The notes below the pieces were generated by a model. It made no database searches, was not told where the DNA came from, and was given only the letters and a program-made list of their open reading frames with translations. From a virus: a DNA stretch of 25,630 nt. The position numbers and the translations under genes are program-made. Position 1 is the first letter of the stretch. The number at the start of each line of letters is the position of its first letter. The stretch spans positions 65,311 through 90,940 of the IMG/VR virus record IMGVR_UViG_3300030419_003817; one strand, written 5' to 3'. Of this stretch, positions 1,333 to 23,531 are shown one piece after another.

Positions 1333-4300
1333 TCTCTGCATCTGCTGTCCAATACCAAGTTGAATCAATTGGGTTACTAGTATGGTCATTTGTTCGCATC
1401 GAGAAAAAAGTAACTCCAGTATCAGATACACCAGTAAGTGCATCTACTTCAACATTATCATCTGGGGAGGGAAGTGCATCAAACACATTTCCTCTTTCAC
1501 CATCTTTTGGACTATAAATGAGAACTTCAGGAACTGCTCTCATGGTGCCTTTGTATCTGAAACTAGGACCACCTGACCCTTGCCATTCTTCTTTCAAACA
1601 TCCAGGCGTACTCCAGTACTCAAAAAGTTCAGTAGTAACAGCATCATCCTTAACCTCTGTTGTACTATTGAAACCACCTAAGGCCGCATCATCACTTCCA
1701 GGCGGTAAGTGTTGAGGAATCGATTTCTGGAAATATCTTTCACACCTTTGAAGTGTAATTTCCTTTGGAAGACTTTCAAATTGTGTTGCACGCCTTCCTC
1801 TTTCAAGTTGAACTTGTGCAAAATGCATCTCACCATGCCAACCAACAGTTGTTGTAGAATCAGGACGAAGGTCCAATTGCCAGAATCCTTTCCCTGCGGT
1901 GACACCTCGTCCCTTTTGGTCTAGTTGTCCTTTAATTGAAGGAACAGTATATGTGTGTTTATATTTTTGCCAATCTTCGGTCACAACAAATGTAGGACCT
2001 GTAAGACCTAATGATGTAAACTTAAATCCAAGTTCCGAACCATGTAGTGGTGAACCTTCGAAAGCGTCACTTGTGGCATCGGTGTTTGCGAGGTTTGAAC
2101 CCACACCATCTGAAAATGCTGAAAGATTTGCTTTTATTCTGTCTACTGTTGATGTTCCAGAAAAATCTACATCTGATAATTTTCTATAATAAAAACTTAG
2201 TGTAATACTTTCATCATCAAAAGTTGTAACATCTTCAATTCTTTGAGAAAGTGCTTGGTCGTTTCCTGCGACAGATACATTATGTTTTAAATAATATTTA
2301 GCAGATGCCGCTCCAGATGGAAGTGTCGTTGTCGAGGAATTATAATCAAATATTCCCCGTGTTATAGCATATGTATCGCTCGACCTGTTGGTAATTTTCC
2401 AACGGTCACATGTGTATGCCTGGTCTTTGATGATATCAGCATCTGCTTGTGCCCCACCTCTTTGTCCAAGAGGAGAAACATATGGGTTTGCCCTTACCTG
2501 CTCTAAAGATGCAAGAGAGTTTGTGAGTGTACCCGTGATTGTATTGTCATTACCAAATGTGTTTCCTCTCTGCCACACATCAAAGTTACCATTGATGAGA
2601 CTGTTTCGATAAACACCAAATGGTTTTGGAATAAGAACAGTTGGGTCGTCTACATAGAATCCTTCGCAATCTATTCTAATTGAATAGTCGTAAACTCCTT
2701 CGCCCTCCGTTTCATTGAAGTAACTCGCAACGGCAAGCATGATATGAGAACCATCAGTGTCTGGGTCGATTGGAAGAACAACCGTAACTTGTTCTTCTTC
2801 TTCGTTATTCACGGCACTTGGGTCAAGGGAACTTATAAAGTTATCCACTGTCAACCAATTTTCATCGTTTGACACAAACCTATCTTCATCATACTTATCT
2901 GCCCACATGAATAGTTGCGTATTAGCCCCCGTGTTCATATTATGATGAATTCTAAGTTGTATAAATTTAGCATCTTGAGGAATACTAACTCTACTATTGG
3001 GTAATCCAAATCCAGTTTTGGATTTGTGGTCTGCGTCAATTTCGCCGATTGGATTGCCTACATTATCAATAGCGTCATACTGAGTTGAAACAGGCCAACC
3101 CTGACTATTATATTCGTCTAATGCTCTTGAACCTGTGTAGTAGTTACCATTACCAGAGTCGTAAAGAGCGGCAAGGTCTGCACCTGTTTGTGTATTGGGG
3201 TCCCAAATCCCTGTATTTGCTCCACCAAACGAATATTTTTGAACTGGTTTTGAAGCAATATTTCCATCAATTGCTATATGATAAGCACACACATGTGTGT
3301 TGGTTAGAAAATGACCAATGGGTAAGTTTGGATGGTAGGGGTTAGGAATCTTACTGATATCATATCCAGATATAATTGGATGAATCTCGTCACTACGAGT
3401 ATTTCCAAAACCCACATTTTTGAAGAAACCAATAAACTTTCGAACAGGTTTAAAGGTCAATCCCTCTAACTCAGGTTTATCAGTTTCTTCAACACCACTT
3501 ACAACATTACCACGATAACCAAGAACATACCCAGAAGAACTGGTTGTTGCATTTATCATCGGTTTTTCAACAGAACCTATTGAATTTGGTGGAGTCAAAG
3601 TCAAACTTGCGGCAGTTGTGCTTCCTGCACTATTAGCAGAGAGATAATAAACTGCACCTGCACTTAAACCATCTCCTTGTATTAACCCACCAACACCAGT
3701 AATATATCCTGCTGAAGCAATTTTAAATTTGTTTTCATCATCACCAACTGGTGTTTGTATAACAATACCAACTGTCTCTGCTTCCCTCTCACTGTTTGCT
3801 TGTGCTTTGGTATAACTTCCGCCAGTGACGCCCATATCATATCGAATAACATCACCAACTTTAAAGGTGTGTCCAATTTGTTCAATTGTAACTTGATTAC
3901 TTTGTCCCGCCGCGGCCTGTTGTACAGCATCTACAATTTCACCACCAATATAATTTGTTATTAGTGCTTTGTTTCCTTCGAGTGCCACAATGATTGGTTT
4001 TCGAATGTTACCTGCGGCCTGTGGCGCTCCACCATTCAGATGACCAGGACTTGTAGTATCAAGGAAGTATGCGTGACCTGGGGATAATTCTGTTACTCCT
4101 GTTGGGAGAACTCCAGAAAAGTCTCCTTCAATCTCGCCACTAAACTGAATATCAAAAGTTGTTCCACTAATCACATTCGATACAACACCAATAATTTCTG
4201 ATGCTTCTTTTGATGTTGCGATGCCAGCAGTGTAACCATTCCCATCAACTCTTTGGTATACTGCCATACCAAAGGTAAGACCGTGATTTGCTTGAGATAT

Positions 4301-5044
4301 TCTCTTGTGATGTCCACCTTTAAGGAATCGTACTCGGCCATCATCCGAAACTCTAAAGATTTCAGTGGTTGCACCTGCAATACTACTTGCACTTAGACCA
4401 CTATATTTGAATACAATATCTTTATAGTTTCCAGTAGAACCCGCAGGGAAAACATTATCACGATTTGCAAATGATACTTCAAGTGCTTCGCTTCCCGCAG
4501 TATTTCCAATAAGAACTCTCTGGTCACCCGAAAGAAGTCTCTTTCCTTCTTTGATTAGAACATGTTCGCTACTCTTCCAGTAGTTATCATCAAGGTTGTT
4601 AATTCCTTCTGGGGCAACAACGGTATACAACCAAGAAGCAGTTACACCTGTTGGGGATTCCTTTACCTTAATCAGTAAACCACCACCACCGGCAGTACTA
4701 ATTCCTGCGGGAGTGGCGCCTTCAGCAGTTGCACCAAGAACAATATTCCAATCATCGATTGTGAGTTCTCTTGAGTTTACTGTGGTGACTGGACCATTAA
4801 ACACCACAGAACCGTCAAAGTTCATGTTCTTCTTTACAGTGCTGTCTATTTCAATATTCAGTACACCAGAAGAATCTGTACCGGCAGAAATACCATCACC
4901 AGTCGTTCCAATGCTGTACATCTTCAAGCGATTTAACTTATCAATAATATCTCGGTTCGTTAGTGTGAACCACTCATTGAATGTGTCGCTGAGAACTAGG
5001 TCAGGAATTTGATATGTATTAAATTGTGGTCCAGTTGCTACCAT
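1328..5044 (-). CDS. Large tail fibre protein with jelly-roll-like C-terminus
   Basis: 1238 residues; a structural fibre that probably binds the host surface. The N-terminus (FNEWFTLTNRDIIDKLNRLK) followed by a stretch like TTVNSRELTIDDWNIVLG is the usual start of marine T4-like fibre proteins: a short attachment segment, then a beta-structured stem. Residues about 245-370 and 383-518 are two copies of a module that also occurs once in the collar gene downstream. From about residue 806 the pattern NSLINGNFDVWQRG, then DRWKI, a beta-sandwich region, VQLERGRRATQFE and CERYFQKS matches the C-terminal jelly-roll, carbohydrate-binding-like module found in many phage fibres and head fibres. The start is ATG at 5044-5042, with GGAG 13 bases upstream inside the end of the small preceding gene. 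The receptor is unknown. It could be a proximal or whole long fibre; T4 gp34-37 similarity is not obvious. Confidence 0.8.
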   Translation of the reverse strand: MVATGPQFNTYQIPDLVLSDTFNEWFTLTNRDIIDKLNRLKMYSIGTTGDGISAGTDSSGVLNIEIDSTVKKNMNFDGSVVFNGPVTTVNSRELTIDDWNIVLGATAEGATPAGISTAGGGGLLIKVKESPTGVTASWLYTVVAPEGINNLDDNYWKSSEHVLIKEGKRLLSGDQRVLIGNTAGSEALEVSFANRDNVFPAGSTGNYKDIVFKYSGLSASSIAGATTEIFRVSDDGRVRFLKGGHHKRISQANHGLTFGMAVYQRVDGNGYTAGIATSKEASEIIGVVSNVISGTTFDIQFSGEIEGDFSGVLPTGVTELSPGHAYFLDTTSPGHLNGGAPQAAGNIRKPIIVALEGNKALITNYIGGEIVDAVQQAAAGQSNQVTIEQIGHTFKVGDVIRYDMGVTGGSYTKAQANSEREAETVGIVIQTPVGDDENKFKIASAGYITGVGGLIQGDGLSAGAVYYLSANSAGSTTAASLTLTPPNSIGSVEKPMINATTSSSGYVLGYRGNVVSGVEETDKPELEGLTFKPVRKFIGFFKNVGFGNTRSDEIHPIISGYDISKIPNPYHPNLPIGHFLTNTHVCAYHIAIDGNIASKPVQKYSFGGANTGIWDPNTQTGADLAALYDSGNGNYYTGSRALDEYNSQGWPVSTQYDAIDNVGNPIGEIDADHKSKTGFGLPNSRVSIPQDAKFIQLRIHHNMNTGANTQLFMWADKYDEDRFVSNDENWLTVDNFISSLDPSAVNNEEEEQVTVVLPIDPDTDGSHIMLAVASYFNETEGEGVYDYSIRIDCEGFYVDDPTVLIPKPFGVYRNSLINGNFDVWQRGNTFGNDNTITGTLTNSLASLEQVRANPYVSPLGQRGGAQADADIIKDQAYTCDRWKITNRSSDTYAITRGIFDYNSSTTTLPSGAASAKYYLKHNVSVAGNDQALSQRIEDVTTFDDESITLSFYYRKLSDVDFSGTSTVDRIKANLSAFSDGVGSNLANTDATSDAFEGSPLHGSELGFKFTSLGLTGPTFVVTEDWQKYKHTYTVPSIKGQLDQKGRGVTAGKGFWQLDLRPDSTTTVGWHGEMHFAQVQLERGRRATQFESLPKEITLQRCERYFQKSIPQHLPPGSDDAALGGFNSTTEVKDDAVTTELFEYWSTPGCLKEEWQGSGGPSFRYKGTMRAVPEVLIYSPKDGERGNVFDALPSPDDNVEVDALTGVSDTGVTFFSMRTNDHTSNPIDSTWYWTADAEI

Positions 5045-5047
5045 TTT

Positions 5048-5254
5048 TTACTTTCGCTCCAATAGTTCTTTTAACATGTTTTTAATCTCTGAAACATCAC
5101 TCTTTATGATATTTATTTCTTTTGAATTTCTTTCTATCTGTTCTTTTGATTCTTTTTCTTTTTTATGAACATTAAATGCGGCAGAATCGATATTGAAAAT
5201 TGCTCCACTGCTAGGGTCTCGAACAAGATTTGGTTTATTATGAATAGGTCTCAT
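5048..5254 (-). CDS. Small coiled-coil protein of the fibre operon
   Basis: About 68 residues from the ATG at 5254-5252. An in-frame TTG at 5266-5264 would add four residues and overlap the preceding stop, but I prefer the ATG because the MRPIHNKPNLVRDPSSGAI start resembles the short N-terminus of comparable small proteins I associate with marine T4-like phages (HK-x-x-LVRD-x-x-SGAI). The N-terminal third has this compact motif. The rest (KKEKESKEQIERNSKEINI, then VSEIKNMLKELLERK) is highly charged with leucine/isoleucine heptads, a probable coiled coil. It sits between the DUF4815-type protein and the long fibre, 8 bases after one and 3 bases before the other. A role as a fibre assembly helper or small structural part is an inference from position only; the function is unknown. 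Confidence 0.75.
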   Translation of the reverse strand: MRPIHNKPNLVRDPSSGAIFNIDSAAFNVHKKEKESKEQIERNSKEINIIKSDVSEIKNMLKELLERK

Positions 5255-5262
5255 ATTTATTC

Positions 5263-8200
5263 TCAATCTAGTGCAAGGACTCTTAAATCTCTAACGACTG
5301 GAGGGACATCTTGTTCTCCAAACAAACAAATCTTAATAACGAACGATGTTATATTAGAAACGGCAACATCTTCATAATCATCACTCGATAACCTATATTC
5401 TACTTCTCTAAAATCAAAATTACTAGTAGACACAAAACTATCACCAGAAGTTTGCATTTCGACATATGGTAAATAGTCCATATTTTCGTTGCTTCCGTAA
5501 CTTGTATATTTTGCAAAAATCTTAATATCCGAACCAGTTGGTTTATACACATCCAACAATACTCTCAAATCACTTGCTGACATTCCATCAGGCAAAGATA
5601 CTCTTCGAGTTATATATCTTGCTCGTGCGGCATCAAGTCCAGAAACCGTTGGAAGTTTTTCATTTATTATTCTTGTTCCTGTAAACTCATTTATACTATT
5701 TTCTACACAAGTTATATTCATCAACTTAGAGTCAATAACAGGAGAAATTGCAGTAGTTGTTGGTGAATATTTTAAGGTGCTAGTCAAAGTAAAGTCTGCT
5801 TCAGATTTACGAATAGTTTTAAGTGGGACTTCTGCGCCTTTTGATATATTTTGATTTAAAACCACATCGAAGGAGTTTGCGTTTTGTATACTTACACTAT
5901 GGTCCATCAATTCTTCTGATGGGTTTATTGTGTGAGTATTAATTCTGAATGTATCACATTCCATTTTTCTTGCGGAGATTGGTCCAGAAAGATTATGGTT
6001 TTTAAATATTACCGTTGCGTTAGATGCTTCAAACTCACAACGATTAATTTTAAACATCAAATCTGTGGTTAAATCTATGGTTGACACACTTTCGTTTTGT
6101 GGGTGGAATAATGAACCAGTATATGGGTCAGATGTAATTCTGTTCTGTGTTCCCATATTATTTTCCCCAATAGTGGCGGCATACAATTCATATTCATCAC
6201 TGTTTGCAGACAAAACAAATGCGTAGTCTCCACCCTCCAGATATATTGGAGATGAGAATTTGAAATTAGTTTTCGTTGTGGGCATTTCTTCATCAACATT
6301 TACCTCAGATGAAAGTTTTACAACTTCAGATAGAGGGACTATGGTAGATGAGTGTGGATATCCATCAACGACTGGTCTAATTTGTAAAGTGACTGGGAGA
6401 TTTTCATCTTTGCTTGCAAAGTAAAGGTCTACACTGTGCAAGAACACACCAGATGGATATTGATTGGAGTCTACTGTGAATGTTTGTGCAAGTGGGTCGA
6501 CCCATAAACTATTTTTACGAGTGTTTAGTGTGTAATGTCTGCTGAATACATTACTTGCTATATTTTCAGAAGAAACGGATTGTCTTCTTATAACTGCTGG
6601 TCTTGTAGATACAACATTTGAACCTGCCCTTTGCGGTAAAATACCAGTTGCGTGATATACTGCTTCTGCTGATGTTACCGCGCCCTCTGCATTGTTGTTT
6701 GATTCATCCGTAAGTCTGAAGAGTTTTTGTCCAGTTGTAAATGTTCCTGATGGAATAGCAAACTGTAGATTTACTATAGAACCATTTGAGTCGGTTGTAA
6801 TTGTTCCACCCAATGAACCTCCACTTGGAGTGCAGTGTTCTGAAACATTTTCTTCATCAAAGAATGCATGAAGTGTTGTGTTTGGTTTTAGACCGTGTGC
6901 ATTTATAGTGAGTGTTTTAGGTCTTATAAACGGAACAATACTAACATCAACAATTTTATTGTTTACTTGTTTTTTAAGTTTGTGTGGTAAACTTCGTACC
7001 CTAACACCAGTTCTTGTTTTTGCTTCACCAATAGTTGGTGCTGTTCTTGAAATTAGGTGTGTATTGTTTTCTCTAAGTGTTTGAATGTTAAACTGTTTAT
7101 TTGATACACTTGGTGATTCAATGAAATCTTTACCGTCTGTGTTAAATATATCACTTTCATTGACTTCAATACCACACCATAAACTTTCCCAATGATTCCA
7201 TTGAGAACCCCATCCCTTAGAATTTAGTGCTTTAAGGTCTAAAGTTTCTTCTGAACCAACAGAAGTGTCATCATAATTGGCAACTTTCCAGTTGTCGTGT
7301 TCCCCACGAACATTAATTTTCACTACTGGTCTATAATCCACATCGAACCAAGTATCGCAAGGTGGGTCTAATGTTAAAGTACCAAGAAAATCAACAAGAT
7401 TAAACGGATTAATTTTCAATGTTTTGCTTGCTGAGGTTTGACTAACGAAACTAATAGGATTATCATCATCATAGTTCAATGTAATCAAACCATCTGAAGA
7501 TTGCTTATATCCCAAACTACCTGCTGTCAGACCCAAATCAATATTTTCAAAATGGAATGATGGTCTTAATTCACCCTCTTCTATGTCAATAGAAGCAACA
7601 AAGTCATTATCAGAAATGTCTGCAAACGAATAATTTTTAAAGTTGTCTACAACAACCCCCTTCTTAAAAGCAACTGAAGAACCATCATATGAGAGAATAT
7701 TTCTTCCCTCAGTATTGCTTTCAAGTTCTGATAATGTAGAATAGTATTCGATATTAGATATTCGTTTATCAAGATTGCCGATATCAGACATAGTATATCG
7801 TTGATTATTGATTAATTGAACTCTAACATCTTCAGCATTGTGAGTGTATGGAGGAACAGATAAAATATACAAAGATAAAGAATCTTCTCTGTCATTTGGT
7901 GCTTTTGGATTTAACGAGGGAACGCCTTTTATTATCTCAAAAGCATGGTCTTCTTCATTTATAGTTTTCTTTAAAACAATCTTATCAATTCTTGGGAGAT
8001 AATATTCATGAGATTCAAAGATTACATCACTTGAAAGAACACCTGTTCTTGGGAATCCACCACCAACAAGTGGGGCATCTTGTTCAACTGCCCCATCAAT
8101 TCTAGTCAAACGAGATGGTCTAAAGTCCAAAACATTTGCGAGGGACACAACTTTGTTGGTATCGGTTATTGTGTATAGAGGAATATCAACTAAATCAAAA

Positions 8201-17227: not shown

Positions 17228-17635
17228 TTACCTCAGTCTTTGCAATGCTGTGTTTAATGTTATCGTTTCTGTCTGGTTTACAATTGTAAAAATAATAGAA
17301 CACTCAAATGCATTCTTGTCAGGAAAAGCATAAACCTGAACATCAATCAGGTTTACTCTTGGTTCAAATTGAGAAATCAAATCCTTAATGTTTGACTGTA
17401 TCAAAGATGCGGTAATTGGTGTCACATTTTCAAACAACAGTCTTCGTAATCTAGAATTAATTTCTGGTCTAAATGGTCTTTCATATTTCGATGTAAATAT
17501 GAGATTTTTGAGAGACCTCTTAATTGCTTCGGCATCAAATTTACGAACGACATCCTTTGTGATTGGATGTCTGTCAAAGTTCATATCCAAATCAACAAAT
17601 CTATTATCGTTCGACCTATTTCTTTTATATGCCAT
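17228..17635 (-). CDS. 25: Baseplate wedge protein gp25
   Basis: 135 residues, matching T4 gp25 (132) in size. It carries the Glu-Pro-Arg motif conserved in gp25 and the type VI secretion homologue TssE, at residues 91-93 within QFEPRVNLIDVQV. Other family marks are NRFVDLDMNFDRHPITKDV near the start, the helical KRSLKNLIFTSKYERPFRPE block and SRLRRLLFEN. gp25 sits between gp6, gp53 and the first sheath ring and helps nucleate sheath assembly. Despite the old 'lysozyme-like' family name it is not expected to be an enzyme. It lies directly before gene 6 and 11 bases after the membrane GAF-like gene, without a clear Shine-Dalgarno. In T4 gene 25 lies in a different operon from gene 6, so its place here reflects a marine-type rearranged order. 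Confidence 0.95.
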   Translation of the reverse strand: MAYKRNRSNDNRFVDLDMNFDRHPITKDVVRKFDAEAIKRSLKNLIFTSKYERPFRPEINSRLRRLLFENVTPITASLIQSNIKDLISQFEPRVNLIDVQVYAFPDKNAFECSIIFTIVNQTETITLNTALQRLR

Positions 17636-18308: not shown

Positions 18309-21260
18309 CTAAAAGGTGCCGCCATCACACATAGAAGGCATTAATCCTTTGTCCGCAATGTACTGAAATCCTGATTTTTTATTTGACGGTTCTAATCCCG
18401 ATGTATCTCTTGTTGCAATATAAACTTTGTTGTTGTATTCTACGATATCATTTTTCTTGTATGATTTTTTTGTTGATGTTGATTGACCTCTCGGAGCATT
18501 TTCAAACTTACTGTAACTTCCTATCCAGTTAAAATCACTGTTACTACGAACAGCATTGCGAGGGACACCAAATTGGTCAAGATACTTTTGCTTTTTCCAA
18601 TCTGGCCATGCATCGTCCCACTCATCACGAGGGTCAACACTCTTTAATATACACTCGGGCGCACAGCATGTTTCTTCATAGGACTCTATCATATCTTTGA
18701 TTTTCTTATCAAAGTTGTTTGCATCTCGAAAACATTTCTCAAGAGCCCTTTCTGCATCACGAATCTCCCGTCTTAACTTATCACAAATTGGGTGAGTTGG
18801 TGCAAACACCTCACCAAATTTAGTAATACTCATATCACACCCTTGCTTTGCGGCCGCATCCTTGGCGATTATCAACAACATTTTATTGGTTAAACATATA
18901 CACCTCATCGTGTGTGCGAGTGTTGGCATAAAATTAAGAATCGATGCAATAAAACAACATGCCGCAGCCAGTTCGGCATCTTCGTCCCACTCCCCATACC
19001 AGTTTGGTTCGAATTCCATGTCCGTACAATCACACGCTTCGGGAGCAAGAACATTGATGCATTTATTCCGTTCATCTATTAATTCTTTCGCCCGCCTTTC
19101 ACATTCGTCAATTTCTCTTCGTAACTCTTCTATCTCATTTACGAAATCACTATTAGTAACATTTGCTCTTGCTTCACCAAATGTCCTGTCCAAAATGGGA
19201 TACAAGTCTTCCTCATAATGTTCTATATCGTGTATTAATTCATTAATCGTTTCACCACCACGATTTTGGAAAAATGACTTCATTAGTTCTTCATTAGATT
19301 GCATCTGTGTAAAAATTGTAATTAATGAAGTAGACCTATTAATTAAAGACTGTCCCTTTTGTATAATTTCATCATTTGTCGCCTGATGTGCGTTACACAA
19401 ATACTCTGGACGAACTCTTGCACCCCATTTTTTACAGAGATATTGTCCATCATCAAGTTCTTGATAAAAATGACAATTAGCACACTTTTGCTCACTGGGT
19501 GCGTATCTATATGTTTGTGGTAGTCTCAACGAGATGAGTGTTCCATCTTCTAGATGTCTCGGAGTTGGAGGAGGGACATATCTGAGAAGTTGATGGTATC
19601 CATCACAGTATTTGTTCATCACTTTTTGCAACTCGTCCGTCACACCTAATAACTCTTGAAGTTTCCTTTCCACTTCTCCGTGAAATTGTGTGACACCCAT
19701 CACAAGACCATTGGGCATAAAGTATGTTGTGCCACCTAGTATATGTGTATGATAACCAAGAGTGTCCTCTCCCTCTCTAGCGACATTGGGAGTAGGACTT
19801 GCGTTTACTGCATCTTCTTTGTTTCTATAAAGAGGGAAGTAACCGTCTAATTGAATAGGCGGTGCAATCCCACCGTTTTTATATTCTTCTTGTTCTTGTC
19901 GAATTTTTTCTCTTGTTTGATTGACAGCATCTGCCGCCATCTGAGTCAAGTGGTGTATCATCTCATTATGAGGTTGTAACCCACAACACACCAATCCAAG
20001 AAATTGTCTTCTCCATTCATCTGGCCAACTTTGTGGTAATCCATACTCGTCTTTTGATTCTACACCCCACTCTGAATCAGGTCTTATATCTGGTGGCCAT
20101 GAAATATCGACTGGGTATCCGTCTGGTTGTGGAAAATCTCTGAGACAGTCTCCACTGCCGGTTTTCAGATTAGGTTCATGTGGTTCAATTACGATATCAC
20201 CTTCGTGAATTAACATCGAACCATCTTCACCAAACTCTATATTATTTTCTCTAAACCAATCATCCTGTATACTTTTCAAGTTTTCAATTCTTCTTAGAAT
20301 TGGTGGTAAATTTAAAATAGGGTTTGGTGAATTAATTAAATTATCTGCAAGAGAACGAACATCCGATTCAAAAATTTCTGTAACTGGTTCGGATGCGGAG
20401 CGTTCATCAGGAGGACAACATGGTAGGTATGGATATAATTTAGAAAGAATAAGGTCTCTGTTTCCTTGAAGGAAACACTCAGCATTAATGTCATCACAGT
20501 CCTGATAATTGTCAGGTATAAACCATTCGGGGTCAAATGGTTCGTCCATTTCTCCAATTTCAGGACTAAAACATATTTCACAACCGCCTGCTGTAAGACC
20601 ATGATACCACTCATCGACCGTGGTTGCAAGTGACAGGGGTGTGTAGTTTCCACAATCGCAGGGAATTTCTCTACCAAATTTAACTTCCCATATACACACA
20701 GGAAGAGAGTCCTCGCCCCACTGACCGTTCATCGGGTCTTGATTTTGTAGATACGGCGTCAAAGTGCCGCGCCAGAAGGTAACGCCATCTGGATATGAAT
20801 TACTGATACATACAGATTGCTTCGTAACATATTGAATATGCATGTTAACGGATTTTAACAAATAGGGGGTTGTAGACCCTTCAACACGACAACGAGAATC
20901 TCCCATAGGAACTCTTTCGAGATTTTCTTTACCAATCGTAAACTTAATTCTTGCATGTACCGTTTGAAAACAAGTGCCTTTGTCTGTTCCAGATTCACCA
21001 TACAACAAAGGCACAACATCGCCTGGATATCCAGGCGAAGTAAGTTCGTCCGTGTTCACCATCGAGATGGGTGTCGAAGTTCCCATCGGAGTCTGCGGAG
21101 TAGTTGGAGTCTCCATTGGGGTCTGTGGAGTAGTTGGAGTCTCCATTGGGGTCTGTGGAGTAGTTGGTGTCGCAGGTGGCGGACTAGCAGGCACACTTGC
21201 GGGTGGAGTCGCAGGTGGTGGTGTGTAGTTGTTTTGATTTCCTCCAGTATGGTATGGCAT
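18309..21260 (-). CDS. Cysteine-rich modular tail protein with HiPIP-like motif and CBM-like C-terminus
   Basis: 983 residues; not recognised as any T4 protein. Visible parts in order are: a Pro/Thr-rich neck (about 12-65) with a 10-residue repeat of the type ETPTTPQTPM; a beta-rich cysteine-containing region (about 70-260, for example CDCGNYTPL and GGCEICFSPE); a central helical part; a four-cysteine cluster C593-x2-C596-x12-C609-x12-C622 (CANCHFY, then CKKWGARV and YLCNAH) resembling high-potential iron-sulphur or zinc-ribbon clusters; a coiled coil (EIEELRREIDECERRAKEL); a hydrophobic stretch near 763-802 with CC at 768-769; a second coiled coil; and a C-terminal segment (about 931-968, KKNDIVEYNNKVYIATRDTS) resembling CBM5/12 carbohydrate-binding modules. 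I count 35 cysteines, against few or none in neighbouring structural proteins. The position after the PAAR and 284-residue genes suggests a tail hub or tip part. Metal binding and sugar binding are inferences from motifs. Confidence 0.75.
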   Translation of the reverse strand: MPYHTGGNQNNYTPPPATPPASVPASPPPATPTTPQTPMETPTTPQTPMETPTTPQTPMGTSTPISMVNTDELTSPGYPGDVVPLLYGESGTDKGTCFQTVHARIKFTIGKENLERVPMGDSRCRVEGSTTPYLLKSVNMHIQYVTKQSVCISNSYPDGVTFWRGTLTPYLQNQDPMNGQWGEDSLPVCIWEVKFGREIPCDCGNYTPLSLATTVDEWYHGLTAGGCEICFSPEIGEMDEPFDPEWFIPDNYQDCDDINAECFLQGNRDLILSKLYPYLPCCPPDERSASEPVTEIFESDVRSLADNLINSPNPILNLPPILRRIENLKSIQDDWFRENNIEFGEDGSMLIHEGDIVIEPHEPNLKTGSGDCLRDFPQPDGYPVDISWPPDIRPDSEWGVESKDEYGLPQSWPDEWRRQFLGLVCCGLQPHNEMIHHLTQMAADAVNQTREKIRQEQEEYKNGGIAPPIQLDGYFPLYRNKEDAVNASPTPNVAREGEDTLGYHTHILGGTTYFMPNGLVMGVTQFHGEVERKLQELLGVTDELQKVMNKYCDGYHQLLRYVPPPTPRHLEDGTLISLRLPQTYRYAPSEQKCANCHFYQELDDGQYLCKKWGARVRPEYLCNAHQATNDEIIQKGQSLINRSTSLITIFTQMQSNEELMKSFFQNRGGETINELIHDIEHYEEDLYPILDRTFGEARANVTNSDFVNEIEELRREIDECERRAKELIDERNKCINVLAPEACDCTDMEFEPNWYGEWDEDAELAAACCFIASILNFMPTLAHTMRCICLTNKMLLIIAKDAAAKQGCDMSITKFGEVFAPTHPICDKLRREIRDAERALEKCFRDANNFDKKIKDMIESYEETCCAPECILKSVDPRDEWDDAWPDWKKQKYLDQFGVPRNAVRSNSDFNWIGSYSKFENAPRGQSTSTKKSYKKNDIVEYNNKVYIATRDTSGLEPSNKKSGFQYIADKGLMPSMCDGGTF
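21079..21172. repeat. 30-base tandem repeat, about three copies, coding a Pro/Thr neck
   Basis: Units begin at 21091, 21121 and 21151. The first two 30-base units differ at one position, the third matches over its first 17 bases, and a degenerate partial unit precedes them at 21079-21090. On the minus strand each unit encodes a 10-residue Pro/Thr block (ETPTTPQTPM). The array lies near the N-terminus of the 983-residue cysteine-rich protein and probably forms an extended linker. Confidence 0.9.
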
Positions 21261-21264
21261 CTAA

Positions 21265-22119
21265 TTACAGTCCCGACAATTGGTCTATGATTTCTGAAAT
21301 TCCTTGTCCAGATTGTTTTCCTAAAGCATCCTGCATGTTGTTCACTGCTCCCTTTAAAGAAGAAGTTGCTAACATATCATTAAAAAGGTAATTTGAAAAA
21401 CAATCATCCTCATCCTGCATCGAATTCATTATACCGATTGCTGAACTATGATTTGACACATAGTTAAGTGCCTCGGCAAATGCTGAATCATCCGAATTTA
21501 TGAATGATGTAATATTACTTGCATGTTCATTTAACACATTAGTTGCAGATGTGAGTTTTCCTGCCAAATCAAAACCACCAGAAGTAAGTTGCCCAAGTCC
21601 AACACCCTCTGGTAAAATATCAGAAGTAATTGAAGTTAATTGACTACTCACACCGCTAAACATTTCTCCTGCATTCTTTTGTAAACTTCCGTATATGTCT
21701 GTAAATCCTCCACCAAGACTGCCTTCCATTTGCTGTTTGATATGAGAATACGATTTTGCAATTGCAAATCTTTGACCAAACTCTTGTAGATTTTCTACAC
21801 CCACTCCAGATATTCTATCTACATGGGTTTTATAATTCATAATATTTCCCTGAAGGTCTTGAACACTTGAATATAAACTATTCACTTGGTTTGCTAAAGC
21901 AGGTTGTCCACTTGCTTGTAATAGTTGACCCACAGAACCCAATCGCTCTAGTGCGTTTGAAGCATCTGTGTCGAACATTGAAAATTCATTTTGGAAAGGA
22001 TTCATCAATCCACCACCACTAAGAATAGTATTAATTACTTCCTTCTGTTCGGGAATTAACTGACTGATACTTTCTTCTAAAGTATCACAATCTGTTGGAA
22101 ATATAAATTCTCTTGCCAT
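21265..22119 (-). CDS. Unrecognised helical protein after the PAAR gene
   Basis: 284 residues; I do not recognise the family. The sequence is mostly predicted helix with long amphipathic runs, Gln/Asn/Ser/Gly-rich linkers, no transmembrane segment and no enzyme motif (for example SVGQLLQASGQPALANQVNS, then LYSSVQDLQGNIMNY and FGQRFAIAKSYSHIKQQME). Only two cysteines are seen, one near the N-terminus (FIFPTDCDTLEES) and one in an acidic patch near the C-terminus (QDEDDCFSNYL). The start is ATG at 22119-22117 with AGGAG 7 bases upstream; that site overlaps the PAAR stop, implying coupled translation. Placement between the spike tip and the cysteine-rich protein suggests a virion or tail-hub assembly role, but this is only context. 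The stop is 4 bases before the next start. Confidence 0.75.
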   Translation of the reverse strand: MAREFIFPTDCDTLEESISQLIPEQKEVINTILSGGGLMNPFQNEFSMFDTDASNALERLGSVGQLLQASGQPALANQVNSLYSSVQDLQGNIMNYKTHVDRISGVGVENLQEFGQRFAIAKSYSHIKQQMEGSLGGGFTDIYGSLQKNAGEMFSGVSSQLTSITSDILPEGVGLGQLTSGGFDLAGKLTSATNVLNEHASNITSFINSDDSAFAEALNYVSNHSSAIGIMNSMQDEDDCFSNYLFNDMLATSSLKGAVNNMQDALGKQSGQGISEIIDQLSGL

Positions 22120-22399: not shown

Positions 22400-22405
22400 C
22401 TCCTT
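22400..22405 (-). promoter_or_regulatory. Shine-Dalgarno AAGGAG fixing the PAAR start
   Basis: An exact AAGGAG on the minus strand, 6 bases before the ATG at 22393, overlaps the stop codon of the spike gene (TAA at 22406-22404). It decides for the short PAAR start over the longer in-frame opening. Confidence 0.8.
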
Positions 22406-23531
22406 AAATAACCCCACCACCAACAGGTGGTTCACTAATGGTGTTCTGTCTTGGAATAGAGTTTGGTGGTTCTTGAACACCGGCACCAGAGTTTAAATAT
22501 ATGTTACCGTCTGCTTGAATTCGAAACTCACCTGCAAGTTTCCCAACACAATTCCCACCAGATATTGCAAAATCAACCAACCCTTCTTGGTCTCGAAGAA
22601 AGATACCATCTTGTGATTTTATAAAAGTGGTCTTATCACAATTTGTTGTTAAAAGTCCCTTTACATTTATCCTCGCATCTTCATCCACTGTTGCTGTTAA
22701 GTTTTTATGAATGTTTGCCGTAACATCACCGTCTACCTCGATGTCACTATTGCCCTTGACGAAAAATGTAGAATTGCCTTCTACAGTAACATTTACATTC
22801 CCTTGAATGTTAACATTCTTATCCCTGACAACAATCTCATAATCATCACCAACAACCTTTGTTACCCTTGAACCATCTGGATGAATCTCTTCGAATGTTC
22901 CTGATTTATGATAAGTATGAATTCGTTCTGCTTCGGGAGTATCATCAAACTCTTGAACATGTCCCGATTCAGTTGTATATACTTGATTGAGAGGATACTC
23001 CGCCGCATAAGGAACTTCAGGTTCAGACCATTTGTTGGTTTTTTCACCATCACTGTTCACATTGTTAGCAATCTCTACCTCTTCGATTCTGCTTTCTTCT
23101 TTAGAAACAACAATTGTTTCTTCCTTTATTCCTCTAGCAAGTCGATGTGTGTCTGGTTCGTCTGTCTCTTTTGGATATACTCCACTTGGGTCATTGAATC
23201 CCAGTTCTGTGTTTGCCTTTTCGGTGGGGATACCACCAATCGAACCAAAGATAACTGGTTGTTGTGCATCTTTACCATCTCGAAAGAATCCAACAACATG
23301 TGTACCCATAACCAAACCAGTTGGTGAATTACCAACACCACTAATCGAGGCATCTGTTATCGGTTGTATTGGATGTGCCCAAGGCAACTCTTCAGTTGGA
23401 ATGTCTTGTTTATTTGAGGAATGATATCCAAAAATTCTAACACGACAGCGGCCGAGTGCCAGAGGGTCTAAAACATCCTCCACAACTCCGTGAAACCAAA
23501 TAAAACCATCTTTTCCGAGATACTCACTCAT
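22404..23531 (-). CDS. 5: Baseplate spike gp5-like, without lysozyme domain
   Basis: 375 residues against 575 in T4 gp5. An N-terminal OB-fold (about 10-115) is marked by FIWFHGVVEDVLDPLALGRC, then WAHPIQPI, THVVGFFRDGKDAQQPVIFG and SIGG, the gp5/VgrG pattern. A linker follows (about 115-190, rich in Glu and Pro), then YHKSGTFEEIHPDGSRV and a triple beta-helix-type run of alternating residues (about 225-345, for example NVNIQGNVNVTVEGNSTFFV). The C-terminal tail is PPVGGGVI. T4 gp5 carries a lysozyme domain between OB-fold and helix; here the intervening segment is too short and lacks it, so this spike is expected to pierce mechanically. The start ATG (23531-23529) overlaps the stop of the small upstream gene as ATGA. 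Followed at once by the PAAR tip gene. Confidence 0.92.
   Translation of the reverse strand: MSEYLGKDGFIWFHGVVEDVLDPLALGRCRVRIFGYHSSNKQDIPTEELPWAHPIQPITDASISGVGNSPTGLVMGTHVVGFFRDGKDAQQPVIFGSIGGIPTEKANTELGFNDPSGVYPKETDEPDTHRLARGIKEETIVVSKEESRIEEVEIANNVNSDGEKTNKWSEPEVPYAAEYPLNQVYTTESGHVQEFDDTPEAERIHTYHKSGTFEEIHPDGSRVTKVVGDDYEIVVRDKNVNIQGNVNVTVEGNSTFFVKGNSDIEVDGDVTANIHKNLTATVDEDARINVKGLLTTNCDKTTFIKSQDGIFLRDQEGLVDFAISGGNCVGKLAGEFRIQADGNIYLNSGAGVQEPPNSIPRQNTISEPPVGGGVI

Follow-up and report, generated by a model that had tools for sequence, protein, structure and literature searches.

A putative HiPIP-like four-cysteine module in a baseplate-region protein and in portal, protease, and free-standing proteins of phages

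Introduction

High-potential iron-sulphur proteins (HiPIPs, PF01355) are exported periplasmic electron carriers. Small HiPIP-like domains are also placed on large proteins among the accessory subunits of glycyl radical enzymes, i.e., HPAD (2y8n_B), BSS beta/gamma, and MASS beta/gamma, where their role is non-respiratory, i.e., structural or regulatory. These HiPIP-like [4Fe-4S] accessory subunits serve as a solubility aid, and one of them is prone to proteolysis without its cluster (PMC12358834, PMC12590467). In phage lambda, the cluster of gpL is held by Cys 173, 182, 205, and 212, i.e., with spacing of x8, x22, and x6 (PMC10721106).

Here, a four-cysteine module was analysed in a stretch of 25,630 nt (the window). 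The window makes up the final 25.6 kb of a 90.9-kb record of a marine T4-like virus. The module, aa 580-627 of a 983-aa protein, is somewhat more probably than otherwise a mobile phage-borne HiPIP-like domain, in which four cysteines would hold one [4Fe-4S] cluster as a structural knot.

Motif and Genomic Context

The ORF at 18309-21260 on the minus strand encodes a protein of 983 aa (P0001) with 35 cysteines (3.6%), and its motif region was translated as CANCHFYQELDDGQYLCKKWGARVRPEYLC. The first-pass annotation described a C593-x2-C596-x12-C609-x12-C622 motif here and likened it to HiPIPs. The residue numbers, spacing, and coordinates were all exact in the translation, and the four-cysteine motif is real. 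The module (LPQTYR...CNAHQA) was placed at 19380-19523 of the minus strand by alignments A3, A7, and A9, a HIPIP match, and a structure model. Four putative ligands were assigned on the same strand, i.e., C593 (19482-19484), C596 (19473-19475), C609 (19434-19436), and C622 (19395-19397), all of which were invariant in 36 aligned sequences.

Because the protein is so rich in cysteine, the bare spacing is just mildly improbable. The exact x2/x12/x12 spacing appeared in 0.12% of shuffled copies of the protein, any HiPIP-range spacing in 7%, and C-x-N-C-x-hydrophobic/aromatic with spaced V/I/L in 0.025%. It is homology that takes the motif beyond chance, because phage portal proteins share LPxxYR, which lies outside the search pattern. 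The 35 cysteines, some in CC pairs, would alternatively form disulphides or a broad metal surface on which the spacing is incidental. The cysteine count agrees with this, as does a 1245-aa neighbour with 158 cysteines in a related phage. However, other phages have the module as a discrete conserved unit of their proteins, and its match to HiPIPs extends beyond the cysteines; an incidental spacing is very hard to credit.

The gene of the protein lies in a minus-strand cluster of T4-like baseplate genes, which was recognized by Pfam and PHROGs. The cluster comprises a phrog_232 wedge protein, a phrog_350 tail protein, a gp5-like baseplate hub with OB domain (22404-23531), and a DUF7217 baseplate-region protein (21265-22119) as the upstream neighbour by Pfam. 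After the 983-aa protein follow a small protein, a gp25-like wedge subunit (17228-17635) as the downstream neighbour, gp6, and more wedge proteins. For gp6, the closest records were phages of Methylophilales, Pelagibacter, and cyanobacteria, with approximately 35-38% identity. The tail protein setting claimed in the first pass was thus borne out, and the gene order suggests that the 983-aa protein is part of the virion. No comparable gene is annotated between gp5 and gp25 in the cultured T4-like relatives HTVC008M, Melnitz-3, and Mosig, and a PF01355 search of HTVC008M and Melnitz-3 gave no match.

The whole P0001 had no match in 50,697 phage records or in IMG/VR 8-mers. Outside the module, clear relatives were found for a 59-aa segment only (aa 473-531; 19668-19844, minus strand; GYFPLY...YHTH...MPNG...TQFHG), in baseplate-region proteins of two other IMG/VR phages. 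This segment, GYFPLY...GYHTHILGGTTYFMPNG...TQFHG, contains an HxH motif, which is YHVH or YHIH in other marine phages. Some tail fibres use HxH motifs to bind iron. A CBM5/12-like segment was located at the C-terminus (aa 931-972; 18345-18470, minus strand), with a weak match also at the C-terminus of a homologue, L117. The L117 homologue has 269 aa, lies at the same place behind gp5, and is rich in Pro at its start and CBM5/12-like at its end. The four-cysteine module is absent from it, so the baseplate-region protein that carries the module here can do without it.

In the related record IMGVR_UViG_3300030060_006030 (L116), the 1245-aa protein with 158 cysteines is encoded at 1808-5542 in the tail region and shows CCNGECV-like runs. 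It adjoins a homologue of part of the 983-aa protein. Its start resembles the DUF7217 baseplate protein by eye, with no match in Pfam.

Distribution of the Module

A search with 60 aa around the motif gave weak matches, two of which were real relatives. One is gp22 of HTVC202P, a 68-aa pelagiphage protein with relatives encoded at 129 IMG/VR loci, and the other is the N-terminus of the prohead protease of Pontimonas phage phiPsal1. Both share the cysteines and an upstream [LM]P-x2-[YF]R element. A DNA pattern of the cysteines, Asn residues, an aromatic-type position, and Val gave nine matches in IMG/VR, i.e., five portal proteins carrying the module C-terminally and four that were not ORFs. 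The LPxxYR of these portals equals LPQTYR of the window, though it was absent from the search pattern. The portal and window modules showed 49% identity over 55 columns, with a pairwise E of 1e-12. Alignment-guided searches added portals in which the module is internal, between the portal core and the next domain, as well as more free-standing module proteins, the closest of them 54% identical. The portals were identified by Pfam (PF04860, E 1e-66 to 1e-77). The free-standing proteins, of about 70-150 aa, occur in pelagiphages and other phages.

In the alignment (n = 36), one Pro and the four cysteines were the only invariant residues, and Asn, Val, and Trp were conserved in at least 90%. The cysteine spacing was x2, then x7-15 between the second and third, and x12-13 between the third and fourth, and no member (0/36) had a Cys-to-His exchange. 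As judged from these alignments, a module of approximately 50 aa, LPxxYR...CxNC...C...V...C, is conserved across phage proteins.

The window domain searched alone in IMG/VR gave no confirmed match. In two pattern scans of 84,980 cellular genomes, 0 of 105 and 0 of 55 pattern matches were confirmed. Therefore, this form of the module appears to be phage-specific within reach of the patterns used. Matches in RecB/Cas4-like exonucleases of Rhizobium and others were Cys-rich nuclease tails without the LPxxYR lead-in, as judged from one translated case, and were discounted as coincidence or another kind of cluster. No named family for the module was found in PHROGs or NCBIfam, and no description of such a module in phages, or of a HiPIP in a phage, was found in the papers searched.

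Two further features were observed beside the module in other records. The portals L112, L114, L119, L125, and L110 have a second, unnamed domain in the C-terminal region, WRxExGRGGTxVGVxRAxQLVxxExLSxxTVxRMxSFFSRHxVDK...IAWxLWGGD. In L118, a 331-aa ORF separates a ferritin/Dps-like gene (2584-3018; PF00210, E 2.7e-24) from a downstream free-standing module (4001-4186), the closest one to that of the window. The ferritin-like gene, two genes upstream of the module, is a possible link to iron in this single case.

Sequence Profiles and Predicted Structure

The best Pfam family for the window domain was HIPIP, with 17.9-18.0 bits (18.0 for the 60-aa piece), which is below the GA of 22. The whole protein reached 14.5 bits against the same PF01355 cut-off, and the local match spans just the region of the first three cysteines. 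Among the 36 members, HIPIP was the commonest Pfam match (11/36, best 5.6e-4), and any zinc family was found in at most four. In a PDB profile search, HiPIPs occupied the top seven places (1hlq, E 5e-4), and they also led with earlier profiles. The profile-profile comparison with HiPIP gave a score of 40.2 (prob 95%) over 41 columns with all four cysteines aligned in the C-x2-C...C...C order of HiPIPs, whereas the best score in 200 column shuffles with the cysteines fixed was 20.0. Profiles A3, A7, and A9 were relied on, from which the jumbo-phage HIPIP member was left out; profile A1 contained it, and its E of 5e-5 is inflated for that reason.

This jumbo-phage member is a 131-aa ORF of a 484-kb uncultured phage (L004; LR756508.1, 3746-4141). 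It matched the window domain, scored 25.7 bits for HIPIP against the cut-off of 22, and conforms to the HiPIP signature. Its neighbours are RuvC-like and primase-like by eye. By its sequence, it would be a phage-encoded HiPIP-type protein outside the structural genes.

The HiPIP signature is PROSITE PS00596, which we take to be C-x(6,9)-[LIVM]-x(3)-G-[YW]-C-x(2)-[FYW]. The first pass had noted that the usual Gly-[Tyr/Trp]-Cys ending reads Tyr-Leu-Cys here, and this was seen in the window. The window copy departs from this signature at Gly, [YW], and the last aromatic, and the full signature was found in 1 of 38 sequences. The window copy is therefore best called HiPIP-like and not a strict HiPIP, being under the Pfam cut-off and deviating from the signature.

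The residues 565-632 (19365-19568) were modelled by AlphaFold with a mean pLDDT of 82.7. By VIA-align with 291 chains compared, all 10 PDB entries with Z of at least 2 were HiPIPs (nine) or 2y8n_B. The best match was 3h31 (Z 3.8, a low value; rmsd 3.7; 57 aligned). The HPAD small subunit 2y8n_B, with Z 2.2, was also listed for an earlier model, for which likewise only HiPIPs or 2y8n_B were found at Z of at least 2. Foldseek of the model against the PDB gave no match at E of 0.001 or below. Among viral structural neighbours in BFVD, a 484-aa protein, as long as the phiPsal1 protease, came first, and further down were proteins of phages with the names prohead protease, XkdF, portal, and Dps. The predicted structure proposed as a check thus gave a confident fold with neighbours of the HiPIP type, but with Z not above 3.8 and insignificant Foldseek E-values, and for this reason the HiPIP-like fold is probable and no more.

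It is conceivable that the window copy is decayed or metal-free, with the fold kept and cluster binding lost together with Trp and Gly. The window copy alone of 38 members has no final aromatic (His instead), and its signature is incomplete. However, the four cysteines, Asn, Val, LPxxYR, and the VRPEYLCNA stretch are all retained and the AlphaFold fold is confident, and we regard decay as improbable.

The HiPIP resemblance noted in the first pass was supported by both the profile and the structure comparisons, which are independent. Of the profile check proposed along with it, the lead of HiPIP over the zinc families stood, whereas the window domain itself stayed below the HIPIP cut-off.

Cofactor, Role, and Comparison with Known Systems

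The main alternative cofactor is zinc. The fold would be HiPIP-derived or a look-alike, the four cysteines would bind a single zinc, and the domain would serve structural protein-protein contacts. The module has a CxNCG-like first knuckle, as zinc ribbons commonly do. Weak matches were found to GATA, bL32, PHD, HVO_0649, and XAF1 zinc fingers, one BFVD structural neighbour is annotated as zinc ribbon, and zinc domains are frequent in phages. However, the profile-profile scores of bL32 (28.2), GATA (23.7), and rubredoxin (13.4) stayed below that of HiPIP, and the zinc templates aligned over 21-25 columns against 41 with all four cysteines for HiPIP. The structure comparison gave HiPIP-type [4Fe-4S] folds only at Z of at least 2, and the absence of Cys-to-His exchanges also speaks against zinc. 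A two-knuckle zinc ribbon was rejected, as the module of all members has a single CxxC. One CxxC and two lone cysteines are the layout of HiPIPs, whereas a zinc ribbon has two knuckles. A single zinc is thus the less likely cofactor, though it retains real weight, and [4Fe-4S] is favoured with modest confidence. Counted against [4Fe-4S] were the sub-cut-off HIPIP score and deviating signature of the window copy, the low Z, the weak zinc-finger matches, and the lack of PF01521 in the 91-kb record. This Fe-S assembly gene was found in none of 14 records, including that of the window, which is possibly a fragment.

Cluster binding, cluster type, virion location, and function of the module would, as we infer them, be as follows. 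Four invariant cysteines would hold one [4Fe-4S] cluster in a small HiPIP-like fold, and the cluster would tie the compact domain together, giving folding and resistance to proteolysis. Appended to portals, proteases, and baseplate proteins, the domain would offer a surface for assembly or interaction, in parallel to the HiPIP-like [4Fe-4S] subunits appended to glycyl radical enzymes. The likely role is that of a cluster-stabilised structural mini-domain, and electron transfer is at most conceivable. An iron-sulphur knot, or possibly a zinc one, may therefore be among the building parts of phage particles. In a broader and more tentative scenario, to which we give somewhat less than an even chance, marine tailed phages acquired a HiPIP-fold [4Fe-4S] domain as a mobile module and joined it to their portals, prohead proteases, and baseplate proteins, with host-made clusters in virions at several places and unrelated to that of gpL.

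If the module holds [4Fe-4S], phages of the iron-poor ocean would put clusters made by the host into structural proteins. The occurrence of iron-sulphur parts in virions would in that case extend beyond the gpL-type tail tip, and phages would need the cluster machinery of the host to assemble their particles. The free-standing members of approximately 70 aa are directly amenable to spectroscopy, and the unannotated tail that recurs on the portals of phages gains a name.

Compared with lambda gpL and the RcGTA hub, four cysteines are likewise found in a protein of the phage tail-tip or hub region. The link to the gpL cluster drawn in the first pass did not hold, since the x2/x12/x12 spacing here, and x2, x7-15, x12-13 in the family, is unlike x8, x22, x6, and a gpL-type tail-tip Fe-S domain was rejected on this spacing. 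A Ferrojan-horse role, also raised there, is unsupported because the known carriers are mostly head-assembly or free-standing proteins, i.e., mainly portals, one prohead protease, and small free-standing proteins. Zinc ribbons, bL32, and GATA knuckles have the CxNCG-like first knuckle in common with the module, but their second knuckle is missing from it, and their profile scores are lower over fewer columns.

HiPIPs share with the module the cysteine order, the CxNC core, and the hydrophobic-x3 before the last cysteine, with a profile match and a probable fold match over approximately 55 residues. Unlike HiPIPs, the phage module is fused to virion or baseplate-region proteins, has no Gly-[Tyr/Trp]-Cys in nearly all members, and has the conserved LPxxYR lead-in. 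No sequence match of the module to the accessory subunits of glycyl radical enzymes was found, and 2y8n_B was reached by structure only. These subunits are partners of enzymes, whereas the module belongs to phage structural proteins; as small HiPIP-like domains on large proteins, they nevertheless offer what may be the closest working analogy for the module.
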